Assembly: GCA_021810905.1 (NCBI GenBank)
Contig: JAJZQH010000001.1
Location: 1 to 64,000, forward strand
DNA length: 64,000 nucleotides
Direction: 5' to 3'
DNA from: a bacterium
Lineage (GTDB): Bacteria > UBA10199 > 2-02-FULL-44-16 > JAAZCA01
In this document: positions 658-50,341 of the stretch, one piece after another
How positions within the stretch are numbered: the stretch's first letter is position 1
Layout of the letters: each line of letters begins with the position of its first letter
Notes under the pieces: model-generated
Database searches by the model: none
Told to the model about the DNA's origin: nothing
What the model saw: the letters and a program-made list of their open reading frames with translations, nothing else
Program-made: the position numbers and the translations under genes

Positions 658-1914
658 TTATGCCGCCAGCCCGAAGGCCTCGTGCAGGACGCGCACGGCG
701 AGCTCCGCGTATTTGATGTCTATGACTATGGAGACCTTGATCTCCGAAGTCCCGATCATCTGAATTGCGATCCCCTCCTTTGCCAGCGCCTCGAACATCC
801 GGTGCGCGACCCCCGCGTGGGAGCGCATGCCGAGACCCACCACCGAGATCTTGGCTATGTCGCCAGCGGCCTCCACCCTGCCGGCCGCGACTTCGCGCGC
901 TGCGTTCTCCGCGAGCGTCATGGCGCGGCGCAGGTCTTCCTTGGGAGCGGTGAAGGTGAGGTCCGTGTAGCCGTCCTCCGAGACGTTCTGGATGATGAGG
1001 TCCACGTTGATCCCGGCCTTTGCTATAGGCGCGAATATCGCGGCGGTCACGCCCGCCCGGTCGGGCACGCGCCGGATCGCCACCTTTGCCTCGCCGGTGT
1101 TGCAGGTGATGCCGGAAACGATTGCTCCCTCCATATGTTCCTCCTCGGGCACTACCCACGTGCCTTCTCCGTCCGTGAACGAAGAACGCACTACAAGCGG
1201 CATGCGATAGCGCGCCGCGATCTCCACGCAGCGGCTGTGCAGCACCTTTGCCCCGGCGTCGGCGAGCTCCATCATCTCTTCATAGGTGATCTTCGGAAGC
1301 AGCCGCGCTCCTGGCACGATGCGGGGATCGGCCGTGTGCACGCCGTCCACGTCGGTGAAGATCTCGCAACGATCCGCGCCGATTGCCGCAGCGAGAGCAA
1401 CGGCGGAGGTATCCGAGCCGCCGCGGCCGATCGTGGTGATGGCGCCCTGCTTTGTCGCGCCCTGGAAACCCGCGACCACGGCCACTTTGCCGGACTCAAG
1501 CGCCGTCCTTACAGGCTCGGCGTCTATACGCTCAATGCGCGCGCGGCCGTGGTTTTCGTCCGTGACGATACCGGCCTGGAAGCCGAGAAACGTCTCCGTC
1601 TCGATTCCGAGCTCGCGGAGGGCGAGCGACAAGAGCGCCACCGAGGTCTGCTCGCCCGTGGCCATGAGAAGGTCGAGCTCGCGCGACATGGGCTCTGCCG
1701 TAAACTCCCTGCCGAGCTTGATGAGCCGATCGGTCTCGCCGGCCATCGCGGAGACCACGACCGCCACGCGATCGCCTTCCCGCGCCTGCGCGGCCACTCG
1801 TTTCGCCACCGCGCGGATCCTCTCGACGCCGGCCACGGAGGTCCCGCCGTATTTCTGGACAACGACAAGTGGTACGTTAGTACGTTGGTACGTTGGTACG
1901 TTGGTGGAATTCAT
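658..1914 (-). CDS. lysC: Aspartate kinase
   Basis: Aspartokinase phosphorylates L-aspartate in the first step of lysine, threonine and methionine synthesis. The kinase domain opens with the ATP-binding VVVQKYGGTSV at residues 17-27 and runs to about 260. Two ACT-type regulatory domains follow (about 280-418), as in lysine/threonine feedback-regulated enzymes. The length of 418 is close to the usual 400-410. The start is odd: ATG 1914 overlaps the stop of the four-helix-bundle gene (ATGA), and residues 4-15 (TNVPTYQRTNVP) are translated from a GTACGTTG word repeat. No other in-frame ATG, GTG or TTG precedes the conserved kinase strand, so the native N-terminus seems to have been replaced. Expression may depend on translational coupling to the upstream gene. 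Confidence 0.93.
   Translation of the reverse strand: MNSTNVPTYQRTNVPLVVVQKYGGTSVAGVERIRAVAKRVAAQAREGDRVAVVVSAMAGETDRLIKLGREFTAEPMSRELDLLMATGEQTSVALLSLALRELGIETETFLGFQAGIVTDENHGRARIERIDAEPVRTALESGKVAVVAGFQGATKQGAITTIGRGGSDTSAVALAAAIGADRCEIFTDVDGVHTADPRIVPGARLLPKITYEEMMELADAGAKVLHSRCVEIAARYRMPLVVRSSFTDGEGTWVVPEEEHMEGAIVSGITCNTGEAKVAIRRVPDRAGVTAAIFAPIAKAGINVDLIIQNVSEDGYTDLTFTAPKEDLRRAMTLAENAAREVAAGRVEAAGDIAKISVVGLGMRSHAGVAHRMFEALAKEGIAIQMIGTSEIKVSIVIDIKYAELAVRVLHEAFGLAA
1871..1906. repeat. GTACGTTG word repeat, left arm flanking the four-helix-bundle gene
   Basis: About four and a half copies of an 8-base word (TACGTTGG/TACGTTAG) occur in tandem. The block overlaps the first codons of lysC. 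It is the inverted counterpart of the block at 2296-2334 on the other side of the four-helix-bundle gene. Confidence 0.9.
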
Positions 1915-3731: not shown

Positions 3732-3744
3732 GTGGACTCCATGT

Positions 3745-3862
3745 GGTACGTTGGTACTTTGGTACGTTAGTACGTTAGTTAAACCTGTGAGTGGACAGAC
3801 GGTCTTGTGCATTTCCATGTCATTCACAGCCTTAACTAACGTACCAACGTACTAAAGTACTA
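3745..3862. repeat. Word-repeat hairpin (GTACGTTG family), empty loop
   Basis: The left arm (3745-3780, GGTACGTTGGTACTTTGG...) and right arm (3833-3862, AACTAACGTACCAACG...) are inverted copies with few mismatches. The loop is about 50 bases. Within the loop CTGTGAGTG and CATTCACAG can extend the stem. The hairpin fills the gap between lpdA and tsaE, and its right arm provides the tsaE stop codon. Confidence 0.92.
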
Positions 3863-4286
3863 CTTGAATCTCCCTCGTATTATCATCAACAATGTGAAAA
3901 CGAATATGCTTCGTGCGCGCTGGTAATGCCGTTGGAAAGCGATCCGCCCATTCGATTACCGTGATACCGTCGCCGTCCATGTACTCCTCAATGCCGAGGT
4001 CCATAAGCTCGCTCTGTTTTACGAGCCTGTAGAAATCGAAATGAAACAGCGTGAGCCTGCCGCCCTTGTACTCATTGAGGAGCGCAAACGACGGAGAGCG
4101 GACGTATACATTTTCTGGAACGCCCAGCCCCGCGGCCAGACCTTGTACGAATCGCGTCTTGCCGGCGCCCAGCTCGCCCTCGAGCGCCAACACGTCTCCG
4201 CGCTTCAAACGCCGCGCATATTCCGCAGCCAGTTCGAAAGTCTCGTCCGGGGATGTGGTCGTGTGTGTCATAATTCGTGAGTTCAT
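3852..4286 (-). CDS. tsaE: tRNA threonylcarbamoyladenosine biosynthesis ATPase TsaE
   Basis: TsaE is the ATPase that works with TsaB, TsaC and TsaD to form the t6A37 modification on ANN-decoding tRNAs. The protein has 144 residues, slightly shorter than the E. coli form. The P-loop GELGAGKTRF lies at about 40-49, and FDFYRL and VIEWADR, both family hallmarks, follow. The start is uncertain: ATG 4286 and ATG 4271 are both possible and neither has a strong ribosome site. The last codons (VVL-stop) lie inside the right arm of the GTACGTTG hairpin, so the native C-terminus may have been altered. The tsaB and tsaD partners are not in the window. The gene is probably co-transcribed with nnrE-nnrD upstream. 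Confidence 0.92.
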   Translation of the reverse strand: MNSRIMTHTTTSPDETFELAAEYARRLKRGDVLALEGELGAGKTRFVQGLAAGLGVPENVYVRSPSFALLNEYKGGRLTLFHFDFYRLVKQSELMDLGIEEYMDGDGITVIEWADRFPTALPARTKHIRFHIVDDNTREIQVVL

Positions 4287-4289
4287 GAA

Positions 4290-4424
4290 AAACCGTCCGA
4301 CCGTCCGTTCGTCAAAACCTGTGCGACCGTCCGATCGTACTCTCGTGCGATCGAAAAACCTTGGACGGGGTTACGAACGCACGAAGTACGGCCGGACGAG
4401 AGTACGGTCTTTCGATCGCACAGT
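4290..4424. repeat. Word-repeat hairpin (CGACCGTC word)
   Basis: An 8-base word (CGACCGTC/CGATCGTA) is repeated imperfectly on the left arm, and its inverse returns on the right arm. CTGTGCGA and ACTCTCGT on the left match TCGCACAG and ACGAGAGT on the right. The block separates tsaE from nnrD and extends into the nnrD coding sequence. The word differs from those at neighbouring hairpins, but the architecture is the same. Confidence 0.8.
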
Positions 4425-5951
4425 GTCATCTATCGCTCGGCCCAGCCTCTCAATCACATCTGTGGCAATCACGGCGCTCTCGCCGAGTTCGGCCGCCGTC
4501 ATGTCTCCCGCCAATCCATGCAGATATACAGCCGCTGTACAGGCTGTACGCGCGTCCATGCCCTGCGCGAGAAACGATGCAATGATTCCCGTGAGAGCGT
4601 CGCCCATGCCGGCGGAGGCCATGCCTGGATTGCCTGTCGGGTTGATGGCGCACGTGCTGTCTTGCGTTGCCACCACGGTCGCGGCACCTTTCAGAACGAC
4701 TGTTGCATTGACGCGCGCGGCAAGCCTCTGTGATACGCCCAGGCGATCGGCCTGCACTTCTGCGGTCGTGATGCCTTCCAGCCTGGACATCTCCCCCGGG
4801 TGCGGCGTGAGAATGGTCGACGCAGTTCTTTTTCTTAATGAGTCGATACCAAGCACGTTCAGCGCGTCTGCATCTATTACTGCGGGCGTATTGAGTTCTC
4901 CAAGAAATGCGTTCACGAATGCACGCGTTTCTGCGTCGGTGCCTATCGCAGGCCCCAAGGCCACCGCATCGAATTTCTTTGAGAGATTAACTGCGCGTTC
5001 GATACCCTCGGGCGAAAAATAACCCTTTCCATCGTCGGGTATCGGGTCGCACATGATCTCCGGGTATCGTGCGTCGAAGCGCGCGAACGCAGATTCGGGG
5101 ATACAGTAGGTCGCGAGCCCGCATCCCGCGCGCAGGGCCGCAAGCGCAGCGAGATATCCCGCTCCAAGATGTCCGCCCGATCCGGCGAAGATCGCCGCGT
5201 GACCGAAATCTCCTTTGTGGCTCGTGCGCCTTCTGTCCGCGAAATGCGCGCTGAACGTCGCCGGTTCGATCATCTCGACCCGCGAGTCCACACAGGCAAC
5301 GGCATCGGCTGGAATACCGATGTCAACGACCGTAACCCTTCCGGCGTAATCAGGGCCTTGCCCCACGAACAGCCCCAGCTTGGGAAGCCCGAACGTGACG
5401 GTTCGCGCGGCGCGCACTGCAACGCCAAGGGGCAGTCCCGTGTCCGCGGAGAGGCCGGACGGAACATCTGCTGCGACAACATGCGCGCCGAGTTCGTTGA
5501 TCTTTCGAATGGCCAGCGCCTGCATCCCTTCCACGTTACGGTCGAGGCCTGTACCAAGCAGCGCGTCGATGATACAGGAGGAATTCTTAAATTCCGGTTC
5601 GAGTATCTGCAGCGAGGATTCGTCCGCGACATGAATAATGCGGACATTCATCGCACAAAGGCGATGGTAATTTGCGTGGGCGTCGGCAGAGAGTTCTTTC
5701 GATATCGCCAGGATCACTACGAGCACCTTGTTGCCGCGCTCCATGAGGAGCCTCGCAGCGACCAGCCCGTCTCCGCCGTTGTTGCCGCGTCCGCACAAGA
5801 CTACGACTGGCCCTGAGTCCCCTGAAATTTCGGCGGCAACTGCAGCGAGCCCGGCGCCAGCCCGCTCCATCAACTCGATAGAAGGAATTCCGTACTGCTC
5901 TATGGCGGCACGATCTAGAGAACGCATCTGGGAGGATGTGACGATTTTCAT
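4371..5951 (-). CDS. nnr: Bifunctional NAD(P)HX epimerase / ADP-dependent dehydratase
   Basis: This repair enzyme acts on hydrated NAD(P)H. The N-terminal half (about 1-215, YjeF_N) epimerises NAD(P)HX, with the signature VVVLCGRGNNGGDGLVAARL. The C-terminal half is a ribokinase-like dehydratase, with GNPGMASAGMGDALTG near residue 440. The protein has 526 residues, as usual for the fused form. The start at 5951 (MKIVTSSQM) is the conserved one, but its ribosome site is poor and an AGCAACGC word hairpin lies immediately upstream. The final residues (DTVRSKDRTLVRPYFVRS) are encoded by the CGACCGTC word repeat and have no expected counterpart in the family. This suggests that the original stop codon was lost when the repeat arose. 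Confidence 0.93.
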   Translation of the reverse strand: MKIVTSSQMRSLDRAAIEQYGIPSIELMERAGAGLAAVAAEISGDSGPVVVLCGRGNNGGDGLVAARLLMERGNKVLVVILAISKELSADAHANYHRLCAMNVRIIHVADESSLQILEPEFKNSSCIIDALLGTGLDRNVEGMQALAIRKINELGAHVVAADVPSGLSADTGLPLGVAVRAARTVTFGLPKLGLFVGQGPDYAGRVTVVDIGIPADAVACVDSRVEMIEPATFSAHFADRRRTSHKGDFGHAAIFAGSGGHLGAGYLAALAALRAGCGLATYCIPESAFARFDARYPEIMCDPIPDDGKGYFSPEGIERAVNLSKKFDAVALGPAIGTDAETRAFVNAFLGELNTPAVIDADALNVLGIDSLRKRTASTILTPHPGEMSRLEGITTAEVQADRLGVSQRLAARVNATVVLKGAATVVATQDSTCAINPTGNPGMASAGMGDALTGIIASFLAQGMDARTACTAAVYLHGLAGDMTAAELGESAVIATDVIERLGRAIDDTVRSKDRTLVRPYFVRS

Positions 5952-5967
5952 ATCACGCAGTGAAGAG

Positions 5968-6075
5968 AGCAAGCAACGCAAGCAAAGCCAGCAAGGCAAG
6001 CAACGTTAAAATCAGTACAAAGAACTTGTCATCTCACGCGTTGCTGGCCTTGCTGGCGTTTCTCGCGTTGCTGGC
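5968..6075. repeat. Word-repeat hairpin (GCAAGCAAC word)
   Basis: The left arm (5968-6005) repeats AAGCAACGC/AAGCAAAGCC/AGCAAGGC. The right arm (6037-6075) is its inverse (GCGTTGCTGGCCTTGCTGGC). The loop is about 30 bases. The hairpin fills the gap between acpS and nnr, and its right arm abuts the acpS stop codon. Confidence 0.88.
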
Positions 6076-6449
6076 TACTTTTCCAATACAACATTTGCAA
6101 TGCCGTAGTCCCCGTCGTGCGAGACCATGAGGTGCACCTTTGCAAGTCCCTGTTCGTCGGCAAGGCGCTTGACCTCGCCGTGCAGGTTGATCATGGGCCT
6201 CGATTCGTGCTGGTCTATCTCGATGTCGCGGAAGCGTATCCCCTTTTGGCCGCGCGGCAGCAGGGCCTTGATGAAGGCCTCCTTGGCCGCGAACCTCGTG
6301 GCAAAGCGCTGCGCGGGATGTTTTTTCGTGTTGCAATAGCGTATTTCCTTGTCCGTGAAGATCCGCTTCAGAAAACGGTGCTGCCAGCGAAATATGATTG
6401 ATTCGAAGCGTTTGACATCCACCAGATCGACGCCGATACCGATGATCAT
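6075..6449 (-). CDS. acpS: Holo-[acyl-carrier-protein] synthase
   Basis: AcpS transfers the 4'-phosphopantetheine arm of coenzyme A to apo-ACP in fatty acid synthesis. The protein has 124 residues, typical of this trimeric family. The N-terminal IGIGVDLVDVKRF carries the Mg-binding Asp, and the second signature FATRFAAKEAFIKAL contains the Glu and Lys that contact CoA. ATG 6449 has a GGAGG site 5 bases upstream. It lies downstream of pdxJ with a CAGAATT word hairpin between them. The pdxJ-acpS-nnr order is common in proteobacteria. Word repeats abut the stop codon but do not change the protein. Confidence 0.95.
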   Translation of the reverse strand: MIIGIGVDLVDVKRFESIIFRWQHRFLKRIFTDKEIRYCNTKKHPAQRFATRFAAKEAFIKALLPRGQKGIRFRDIEIDQHESRPMINLHGEVKRLADEQGLAKVHLMVSHDGDYGIANVVLEK

Positions 6450-6467: not shown

Positions 6468-6536
6468 TCAGAAGCCAGAATCCAGAAGTCAGAATTCAGA
6501 ATGACAACAGACATCCCTATTCTGGATTCTGGCTTC
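6468..6536. repeat. Word-repeat hairpin (CAGAATT word)
   Basis: The left arm consists of 7-base words (CAGAAGC, CAGAATC, CAGAAGT, CAGAATT, CAGAATG). The shorter right arm (TATTCTGGATTCTGGCTTC) is their inverse. The loop is about 16 bases. The block lies between the acpS ribosome site and the pdxJ stop codon. Confidence 0.88.
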
Positions 6537-8743: not shown

Positions 8744-8867
8744 GCAGAATTCAGAATCCAGAAGTCAGAATACAGAATGACATATGAACAAGCCTTCTAC
8801 TGACTTCTGGATTCTGGTTTCTTTACATGCCATTCTGGATTCTGACTTCTGTATTCTGAATTCTGGT
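8744..8867. repeat. Word-repeat hairpin (CAGAATT word), the longest arms in the window
   Basis: The left arm (8744-8778) and the far right arm (about 8831-8866) are inverted copies of 35 bases differing at only two positions. They are built from 7-base words CAGAATT, CAGAATC, CAGAAGT and CAGAATA. A third, shorter arm fragment (8800-8818) lies in the loop. The block starts just after the folP stop codon. Confidence 0.93.
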
Positions 8868-12694: not shown

Positions 12695-12834
12695 AGTACG
12701 TTAGTACGTTAGTACTTTGGTACAACATCTTGTGGAATATCTCGTTAGGTCACTGCAGTTGTACCAACGTACTAACGTACCAACGTACCAACGTACGTAT
12801 TTCAGATTTTGTACTATCGTACTATCGTACGGTT
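12695..12834. repeat. Word-repeat hairpin (GTACGTTG family) plus an extra GTACGATA block
   Basis: The left arm (12695-12726) and right arm (12758-12798) are inverted copies of the GTACGTTG word with a loop of about 30 bases. A further block (12807-12834) uses GTACTATC words and is preceded by TTTCAGATTTTG. It overlaps the end of the carbonic anhydrase gene and supplies its stop codon. Confidence 0.9.
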
Positions 12835-13729: not shown

Positions 13730-13756
13730 GTTATGCGCGACGGTGCAAAATCTGAA

Positions 13757-13874
13757 AACCGTACGATGGTACGTTGGTACGTTGGTACTCTGGTACGTTT
13801 GTACAACGGCAGAGTTATTACAAGGTTGCCACTACGGTTTTGTACCAGAGTACTATCGTACCATCGTACGGTTT
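13757..13874. repeat. Word-repeat hairpin (GTACGTTG/GTACGATG words)
   Basis: The left arm (13757-13806) starts AAACCGTACGATGGTACG and the right arm (13838-13874) ends CGTACCATCGTACGGTTT, a long inverted match. The left arm carries two extra 8-base units. The loop is about 30 bases. The hairpin fills the gap between the vanZ-like gene and the bifunctional nuclease gene. Confidence 0.93.
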
Positions 13875-20772: not shown

Positions 20773-20858
20773 GCAGAATTCAGAATACAGAATTCAGAAG
20801 GGAGCTTGCTTCCCCTCGGCGGTTTTTTCATTCTGTCTTCTGACTTCTGTATTCTGAT
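20773..20858. repeat. Word-repeat hairpin (CAGAATT word)
   Basis: The left arm (20773-20799) uses CAGAATT, CAGAATA and CAGAATT. The right arm (20828-20858) is the inverse (TTCTGTCTTCTGACTTCTG...). GGGAGC and GCTTCCCC in the loop can also pair. The block fills the gap between two convergent genes. Confidence 0.9.
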
Positions 20859-49555: not shown

Positions 49556-49617
49556 CAGCACTCAGCATTCAGCTTAAAACTTGTGAGACACAGGTTTTAG
49601 CTGAAAGCTGAGTGCTG
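49556..49617. repeat. Word-repeat hairpin (CAGCACT word) after dnaK
   Basis: Left arm CAGCACTCAGCATTCAGC and right arm GCTGAAAGCTGAGTGCTG form a stem of about 27 base pairs with mismatches, including AAAAC/GTTTT near the loop (TGTGAGACA). It uses 7-base words like the hairpins at 2-14 kb. It could also reduce readthrough between the convergent dnaK and rsmI genes, but it lacks a U-tract. Confidence 0.85.
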
Positions 49618-49639: not shown

Positions 49640-50341
49640 TCATTTGGATTTGGAAATTGGGATTTGCGAAGTTTCTGCTGCGATGATGAGGGTCATCTCT
49701 CCTTTTGGGGGGCGCTCTCGTAACAGGGCAGCAAGTGCTTCGAGATCGTCTCGTACGAATTCTTCGTGAATCTTCGTCAATTCTCGGCATAGGCAGGCGC
49801 GGCGATTACCGAATACCGTCAGGCAATCTTCCACAGTCGCCGCACCCTTCCACGGAGATACGTAAAATGCCAGCGTGTGCGACAGCGCCTTCAACTCTTC
49901 TAGCGCCCTCCTCCTCTTTCCCGGTTTATCGGGAAGAAAACCGACGAACGTAAATCTGTCGGTAGGGAGACCTGCCGCTGAAAGCGCGGCAGCAAGTGCG
50001 GACGGGCCTGGTATGGGAACGACGTTAACGCAAGATTGCACGGCTGCTGCGAGCAGAGGATAGCCGGGGTCGGAGATACAAGGGGTGCCCGCATCGGAGA
50101 CGAGTGCGACAGAGCGCCCTTCCAACAATGCCGCTATGATGGATGCTGTCTTTTCCCGTTCGTTCCCTTTGAAAAAACTCGTGAGCGGCGTATGGATATC
50201 GAAGTGAGAGAGCAGCTTGCGTGTGTGGCGCGTGTCCTCAGCGGCAATGAGATCCACCTCTCGAAGAATACGCAGTGCCCTCGCGGTAATATCCTCGAGA
50301 TTTCCGATCGGCGTGGCAACTATATAGAGAATGCCTGACAT
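49640..50341 (-). CDS. rsmI: 16S rRNA (cytidine-1402-2'-O)-methyltransferase
   Basis: RsmI methylates the ribose of C1402 in 16S rRNA and tunes the decoding site. It has 233 residues, shorter than the E. coli form (about 286) because the extra C-terminal domain is missing. The SAM methyltransferase signatures are complete: LYIVATPIGNLEDIT, AEDTRHTRKLL, LVSDAGTPCISDPGYPL and PIPGPSALAAALSAAGL. The last residues (SQIPISKSK) are encoded by a 7-base word repeat, so the stop is repeat-derived. It is downstream of nadE by 21 bases. Confidence 0.93.
   Translation of the reverse strand: MSGILYIVATPIGNLEDITARALRILREVDLIAAEDTRHTRKLLSHFDIHTPLTSFFKGNEREKTASIIAALLEGRSVALVSDAGTPCISDPGYPLLAAAVQSCVNVVPIPGPSALAAALSAAGLPTDRFTFVGFLPDKPGKRRRALEELKALSHTLAFYVSPWKGAATVEDCLTVFGNRRACLCRELTKIHEEFVRDDLEALAALLRERPPKGEMTLIIAAETSQIPISKSK
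49641..49671. repeat. Word repeat forming the 3' end of rsmI
   Basis: On the minus strand AATCCCA, ATTTCCA, AATCC and AAATG words run in tandem through the last eight codons and the stop of rsmI. No inverted partner was found nearby. Confidence 0.7.

Follow-up and report, generated by a model that had tools for sequence, protein, structure and literature searches.

The repeated words in which several genes of this genome end are most probably (we put the probability at about 0.78) the arms of small mobile hairpins of a MITE- or REP-like kind, inserted in the junctions between genes and only incidentally giving some of these genes a stop codon or a short tail. The window, i.e. the whole stretch of DNA analysed, is bases 1 to 64,000 of contig C2 in a genome of 2.98 Mb. 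Comparisons were made with three other genera from its family (G001-G003) and with additional families from its order and class, and elements were scanned for in C2, C9 and most of C15, which is 838 kb or 28% of the genome.

Structure and families of the word-armed hairpins

The scanned 838 kb hold 104 hairpins with a score of at least 15, which was the cut-off, where a third-order Markov null gives 2. They also hold 41 tandem arrays with a period of 7 nt and 23 with a period of 8 nt, where the null gives none. Unit lengths of 5 to 12 nt were searched, and nearly all arrays have units of 7 or 8 nt. An element is about 60-175 bp long and is built from tandem words of 7, 8 or 9 nt, a core of 15-55 nt and then the words again, inverted. 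Such inverted word arms, corresponding to the terminal inverted repeats of a MITE, are present in 46 elements; a crude filter filed 76 elements under this type, about 8 of which are longer palindromes. The words are CAGAA[TG]N (7 nt) in family A, GTAC[GT]TT[AG] (8 nt) in B, TCGT-type 7-mers in C and G, GTGCG[AT]T[CG] (8 nt) in D, GCNAG[CA]AAN (9 nt) in E and GTGA[CT]C[AG] in F. Tandem 7-nt units are mainly intergenic, as is typical of heptamer arrays, but there are arrays of 8-nt units as well. Longer dispersed palindromes, of the CCCCCTCCTTTGTAAGGAGGGG type and of several 120-180-nt families, are also intergenic (C2:273164, C9:150554, C15:50045 and others). The elements of the window are collected in Table 1.

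Table 1. Word-armed hairpins and word arrays in the window (positions in nt).
Element	Position	Location	Folding
Single GTACGTTG array	1870..1905	predicted aspartokinase N-terminus	
Family B hairpin, 8-nt words GTACGTTG/GTACTTTG	3744..3860	between TsaE and dihydrolipoamide dehydrogenase-like gene	-55.2 kcal/mol, z -8.4
Family D hairpin, 8-nt words GTGCGATC, CGACCGTC	4281..4424	between NNR and TsaE	strong fold
Family E hairpin, 9-nt words GCAAGCAAC	5968..6076	between AcpS and NNR	
Family A hairpin, 7-nt words CAGAATN	6469..6536		
Family A hairpin	8745..8865	past GlmM-like / FolP junction	
Family B hairpin	12695..12796	downstream of anhydrase-like gene	
Short GTACGATA array	12811..12830	anhydrase-like gene end	
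Family B hairpin	13756..13874	adjoins bifunctional nuclease gene	
Family A hairpin	20774..20857	between convergent genes	
CAGCACT/CAGCATT hairpin	49556..49617	22 nt past RsmI stop	

Most contigs of this genome carry words A and B, and 45 other genomes of the class lack them, bar isolated or monotonous matches. The family D hairpin between NNR and TsaE has counterparts at 20 further places in the genome. Relatedness between cores of the same family exceeds that of shuffled controls, in a comparison of cores that still had a few letters of the words attached on either side, and some of the related cores lie in opposite orientation. In family F, two cores are reverse-complementary to one another and have different arms, and the 7-nt family C and the 8-nt family D have a core similarity in common. 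The cores of family B are strongly diverged, which means that not every copy is recent. We infer that the elements have spread as units by transposition-like copying and that the arms turn over faster than the cores; the arms may also lengthen or shorten by slippage once they are inserted.

Four gene ends written in words

The original prediction held that repeats provide the stop codons or tails of four genes, and words do indeed write all four ends, but an extra tail is found only in NNR and RsmI. TsaE (3852-4286, minus strand) ends with GTA CTT TAG at 3852..3860 inside the arm GTACTTTAGTACGTTGG, which extends to 3860. Its terminus NTREIQVVL is of normal length, since the orthologues stop within 1-3 residues of it (NTREIVF in G002, NSREINFL in G001). 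The gamma-carbonic anhydrase-like gene ends with GTA CGA TAG (stop at 12822-12824) inside its GTACGATA run, and the protein equals its orthologues in length. In NNR (4371-5963, minus strand), about 17 codons and the TAA (4371-4423) lie inside the GTGCGATC/CGACCGTC hairpin, which codes for the tail (T)VRSKDRTLVRPYFVRS-stop (tail peptide RSKDRTLVRPYFVRS); the protein reaches about 14 residues beyond its orthologues, all of them within the family D hairpin. The tail of RsmI, SQIPISKSK-stop (49640..49667, minus strand), is coded by CAAATCC-CAATTTC-CAAATCC, a run of 7-nt words that at about 26 nt falls under the tandem-repeat threshold and is distinct from the nearby CAGCACT hairpin, and the protein exceeds its closest orthologue, which is in G002, by about 7 residues. 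The proposed alignment of C-termini with orthologues therefore comes out as expected for NNR and RsmI, whose tails are absent there, but not for TsaE and the anhydrase-like protein, where the length is kept without the repeat.

Relatives have repeats of their own at this place: a TCACGAG/TTACGAG array fills the NNR-TsaE gap in G002, other hairpins follow NNR or TsaE in G003 and G004, and in G004 the tail of TsaE is coded by a hairpin that resembles the longer dispersed palindromes (L011). G004 also has a 7-nt word of its own, TTAGACC/TGAGACC, with four arrays in about 2 kb (L258:12112-14268), two of which overlap gene 3' ends.

Comparison with orthologous junctions

At 14 co-directional junctions the gap in this genome, when the element is subtracted, equals the gap of the relatives with a median residual of 1.5 nt (range -64 to +65), and the undiminished gap is longer than theirs (P=5e-4). 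Junctions free of elements differ by 0 nt from the relatives in 185 comparisons. The relatives compared are different genera, with a protein identity of 40-80%, and their junctions are tight, with a median of about 20 nt. No word element is carried by the orthologous junctions of the sister genera, and other genera hold other repeats at the same junctions. The word hairpins thus share two characteristics of MITEs, the many related copies dispersed over the genome and the orthologous sites that are empty. The part of the original prediction that concerned insertion is supported, since an orthologous junction that lacks the element is shorter by as much as the element measures, and the repeat tails of NNR and RsmI are missing in the orthologues.

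The element ends are uncertain, and in a search for target-site duplications the flanks matched each other no better than shuffled flanks did (P=0.71). Y1 (RAYT) transposases, the type that was searched for, were found at four loci, which are flanked by other sequences and not by the hairpin words. At two of the four (L266, L267; C6) the Y1 genes are flanked by GGTGCCAGGCAC palindromes, an arrangement that is RAYT/REP-like and separate from the word hairpins.

We think that insertion of the elements between the genes of this lineage would postdate its split from the sister genera. An insertion that is to be tolerated must spare the ribosome-binding site of the next gene, and in junctions of about 20 nt the element would for that reason end a few nucleotides from the upstream stop. 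If the insertion reached a little way into the coding sequence, the gene would end at whichever in-frame stop comes first in the element, and between zero and about 17 element-coded residues would be gained. The repeat-coded tails are presumably mostly neutral.

Distance to stop codons

In the scanned contigs 62 gene 3' ends face a word element. An overlap is seen at 17 of them, and a further 25 are at most 15 nt away from the element (42/62 together), so that the word hairpins, like REPs, are dispersed hairpins near stops. When the element overlaps the stop, the protein is longer than its orthologues by a median of 2 residues and at most 11, in a small sample (n=9; P=0.026, uncorrected), whereas the median change is 0 when the element begins 1-15 nt past the stop (n=11). 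Two unrelated genes both terminate in STLVR-stop. The median gap is 6.5 nt on the stop side and about 22 nt on the start side, where the positions are uncertain because a simple hexamer model served for gene prediction. If elements are placed uniformly and 12 nt are reserved for the ribosome-binding site, the expected stop-side gap is 9.4 nt, and the observed gap is not below this (P=0.13). Uniform placement in tight junctions already gives about 9 nt, and an attraction to stops is therefore not needed. That the repeats favour stop codons or have grown at them, as had been proposed, finds no support in this comparison, nor in the arrays that are found also at starts and in genes.

We regard it as very improbable that short words at stops or mRNA ends have grown in place by slippage or template switching. 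Units of 7-8 nt are the commonest class in bacterial slippage (PMC4679880, PMC4692102), and some arms contain long perfect word runs, but related cores at distant sites, reverse-complement copies included, require copying; growth in place is also at odds with the arrays at starts and within genes, and with arrays that are not rich in stops. That stop-rich arrays would have selected the stop positions is ruled out, as 29% of the frames run into a stop after at most 8 codons, compared with 37% after shuffling; an abundance of stops is confined to families F and C and, in part, B. Insertion wherever it is tolerated, mostly in gaps, fits the stop gaps, the arrays at starts and the elements inside genes, which growth at stops does not, and it is the explanation that we prefer.

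The elements fold strongly, with a median of -48.8 kcal/mol, and it could be argued that they are functional RNA hairpins, kept and selected for their position close to the stop, where they would slow the ribosome or protect the 3' end of the mRNA, roles that have been reported for E. coli REPs. This would be compatible with insertion, the many 3' ends within 15 nt of an element agree with it, and there is a precedent in REPs less than 16 nt from the stop that lower translation, in what PMC12306157 relates from Liang 2015. We nevertheless find selection of this kind unlikely, since tight junctions account for the distance to the stop, the sister genera do without the element at the same junctions, the arrays of G002 are placed at starts, and the two arms of an element show no covariation at the RNA level apart from having the word in common. 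A REP-like effect of the word hairpins on translation is all the same possible by analogy, because so many of them are within 15 nt of a stop. An Rfam search with positions 1-22000 of the window gave nothing above the gathering cut-off, only sub-threshold matches to miRNA hairpins.

The strong hairpins at gene 3' ends might also be taken for intrinsic transcription terminators that mark the ends of mRNAs. This is hardly credible, and we consider it ruled out by the missing T-tracts, as at least 6 T in the 8 nt after the element are found in only 1 of 37 co-directional elements; most elements moreover have co-directional genes on either side, and several of these genes directly adjoin each other in relatives, in the manner of an operon.

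Arrays at starts and inside proteins

In 9 of 11 cases in the sister genus G002 a word array ends at a distance of 2-8 nt from a start codon, and for this reason the word could double as part of the ribosome-binding region; it is the 7-nt word TCACGAG/TTACGAG (L204, L192-L202). The predicted N-terminus of the aspartokinase in the window is MNSTNVPTYQRTNVP, coded by the GTACGTTG array; the alignment with its orthologues begins no earlier than residue 17-18, and there is no in-frame start between the array and the conserved stretch.

In the valyl-tRNA synthetase (ValS; L060:9348-12089, minus strand, C15) a complete family B element lies in frame, QSYVSTLVRSYDGTDSNTADQSTNGPKYQRTT, in the stretch that follows WGHRIPVWYC, giving 32 residues here against 4 in the orthologue of G003. 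It is the one clear case of a whole element in frame within a conserved protein, as in Rickettsia palindromic elements. The C-termini of NuoB and PurN are coded by arrays.

A few other open frames deserve mention. The repeat-coded tail of NuoB is GRIQNSESRIQK (complex I genes, L053:5807-10610, C9), and in the same gene cluster one family D hairpin separates the 30-kDa and 49-kDa domains of a single open frame, and another is found just past a shortened 2Fe-2S domain, ahead of the NuoF-like part. Inside an NAD-dependent epimerase (L064:1301-2497, C15) the stretches GHGSRVTGHDSR and RGSRVTGHGSR are both coded by repeats, and the stretches next to them resemble translations of another repeat.

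Discussion

Beyond the insertion of MITE- or REP-like hairpins, one may speculate that the word-armed hairpins are a mobile class of their own, with a machinery that builds or renews the arms by adding words of 7-9 nt with fixed and free letters (e.g. CAGAA[TG]N), so that genus-specific words come to surround related cores, and with insertions that have given new ends, starts and in-frame loops to NNR, aspartokinase and ValS. The fixed and free letters were judged by eye from arms whose units had been picked by those same letters, and we hold this idea to be rather doubtful. The several families with differing word lengths, and with different words in each related genus, do in any case make up a testable set. 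In annotation, tails such as TLVR-stop and peptides like SRVTGHGSR are better taken as coded by repeats than as domain features. In a compact genome like this one, small insertions can time and again rewrite the ends of proteins that are otherwise conserved.

REPs are palindromes of 20-40 bp moved by Y1 transposases, unlike the word hairpins, which are 60-175 bp long, have word arms and show no linked Y1 gene among the four loci. What they have in common with REPs and BIMEs is that they are dispersed intergenic hairpins, often at most 15 nt from a stop (PMC12306157). Coxiella burnetii has about 50 copies each of QMITE1 and QMITE2, which reach 1-50 bp into the 3' ends of conserved genes and provide these with a stop or a short tail, with one C-terminal extension through an in-frame insertion (PMC5896051). 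These are likewise small inverted-repeat elements at gene ends, but their ends carry direct repeats of 2-11 nt, their inverted repeats are single and not arms of tandem words, and the sequences are unrelated.

Heptamer arrays are known from cyanobacteria as STRR. In Xanthomonas the heptamer GGGAATC occurs in inverted pairs able to form stem-loops, with 75 cases in one strain (PMC4692102), and in Beggiatoaceae TAACTGA heptamers overlap upstream stops in 13 cases (PMC4679880). All three are tandem 7-nt intergenic words as here, but have one main word per genome, and not several families with units of 7, 8 and 9 nt and related cores between the arms. The Rickettsia palindromic elements are hairpins of 105-146 bp in frame within conserved proteins (PMC2229807), which is what is seen in ValS, although their sequence is unrelated and most of the word hairpins here are intergenic.

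Small mobile repeats are thus known to supply stops and tails as a side effect, which demands no special event at stop codons. The word-armed hairpins are a variation on known work, in how many families there are, in the combination of units of 7, 8 and 9 nt, and in the related cores between the arms, all within one genome.
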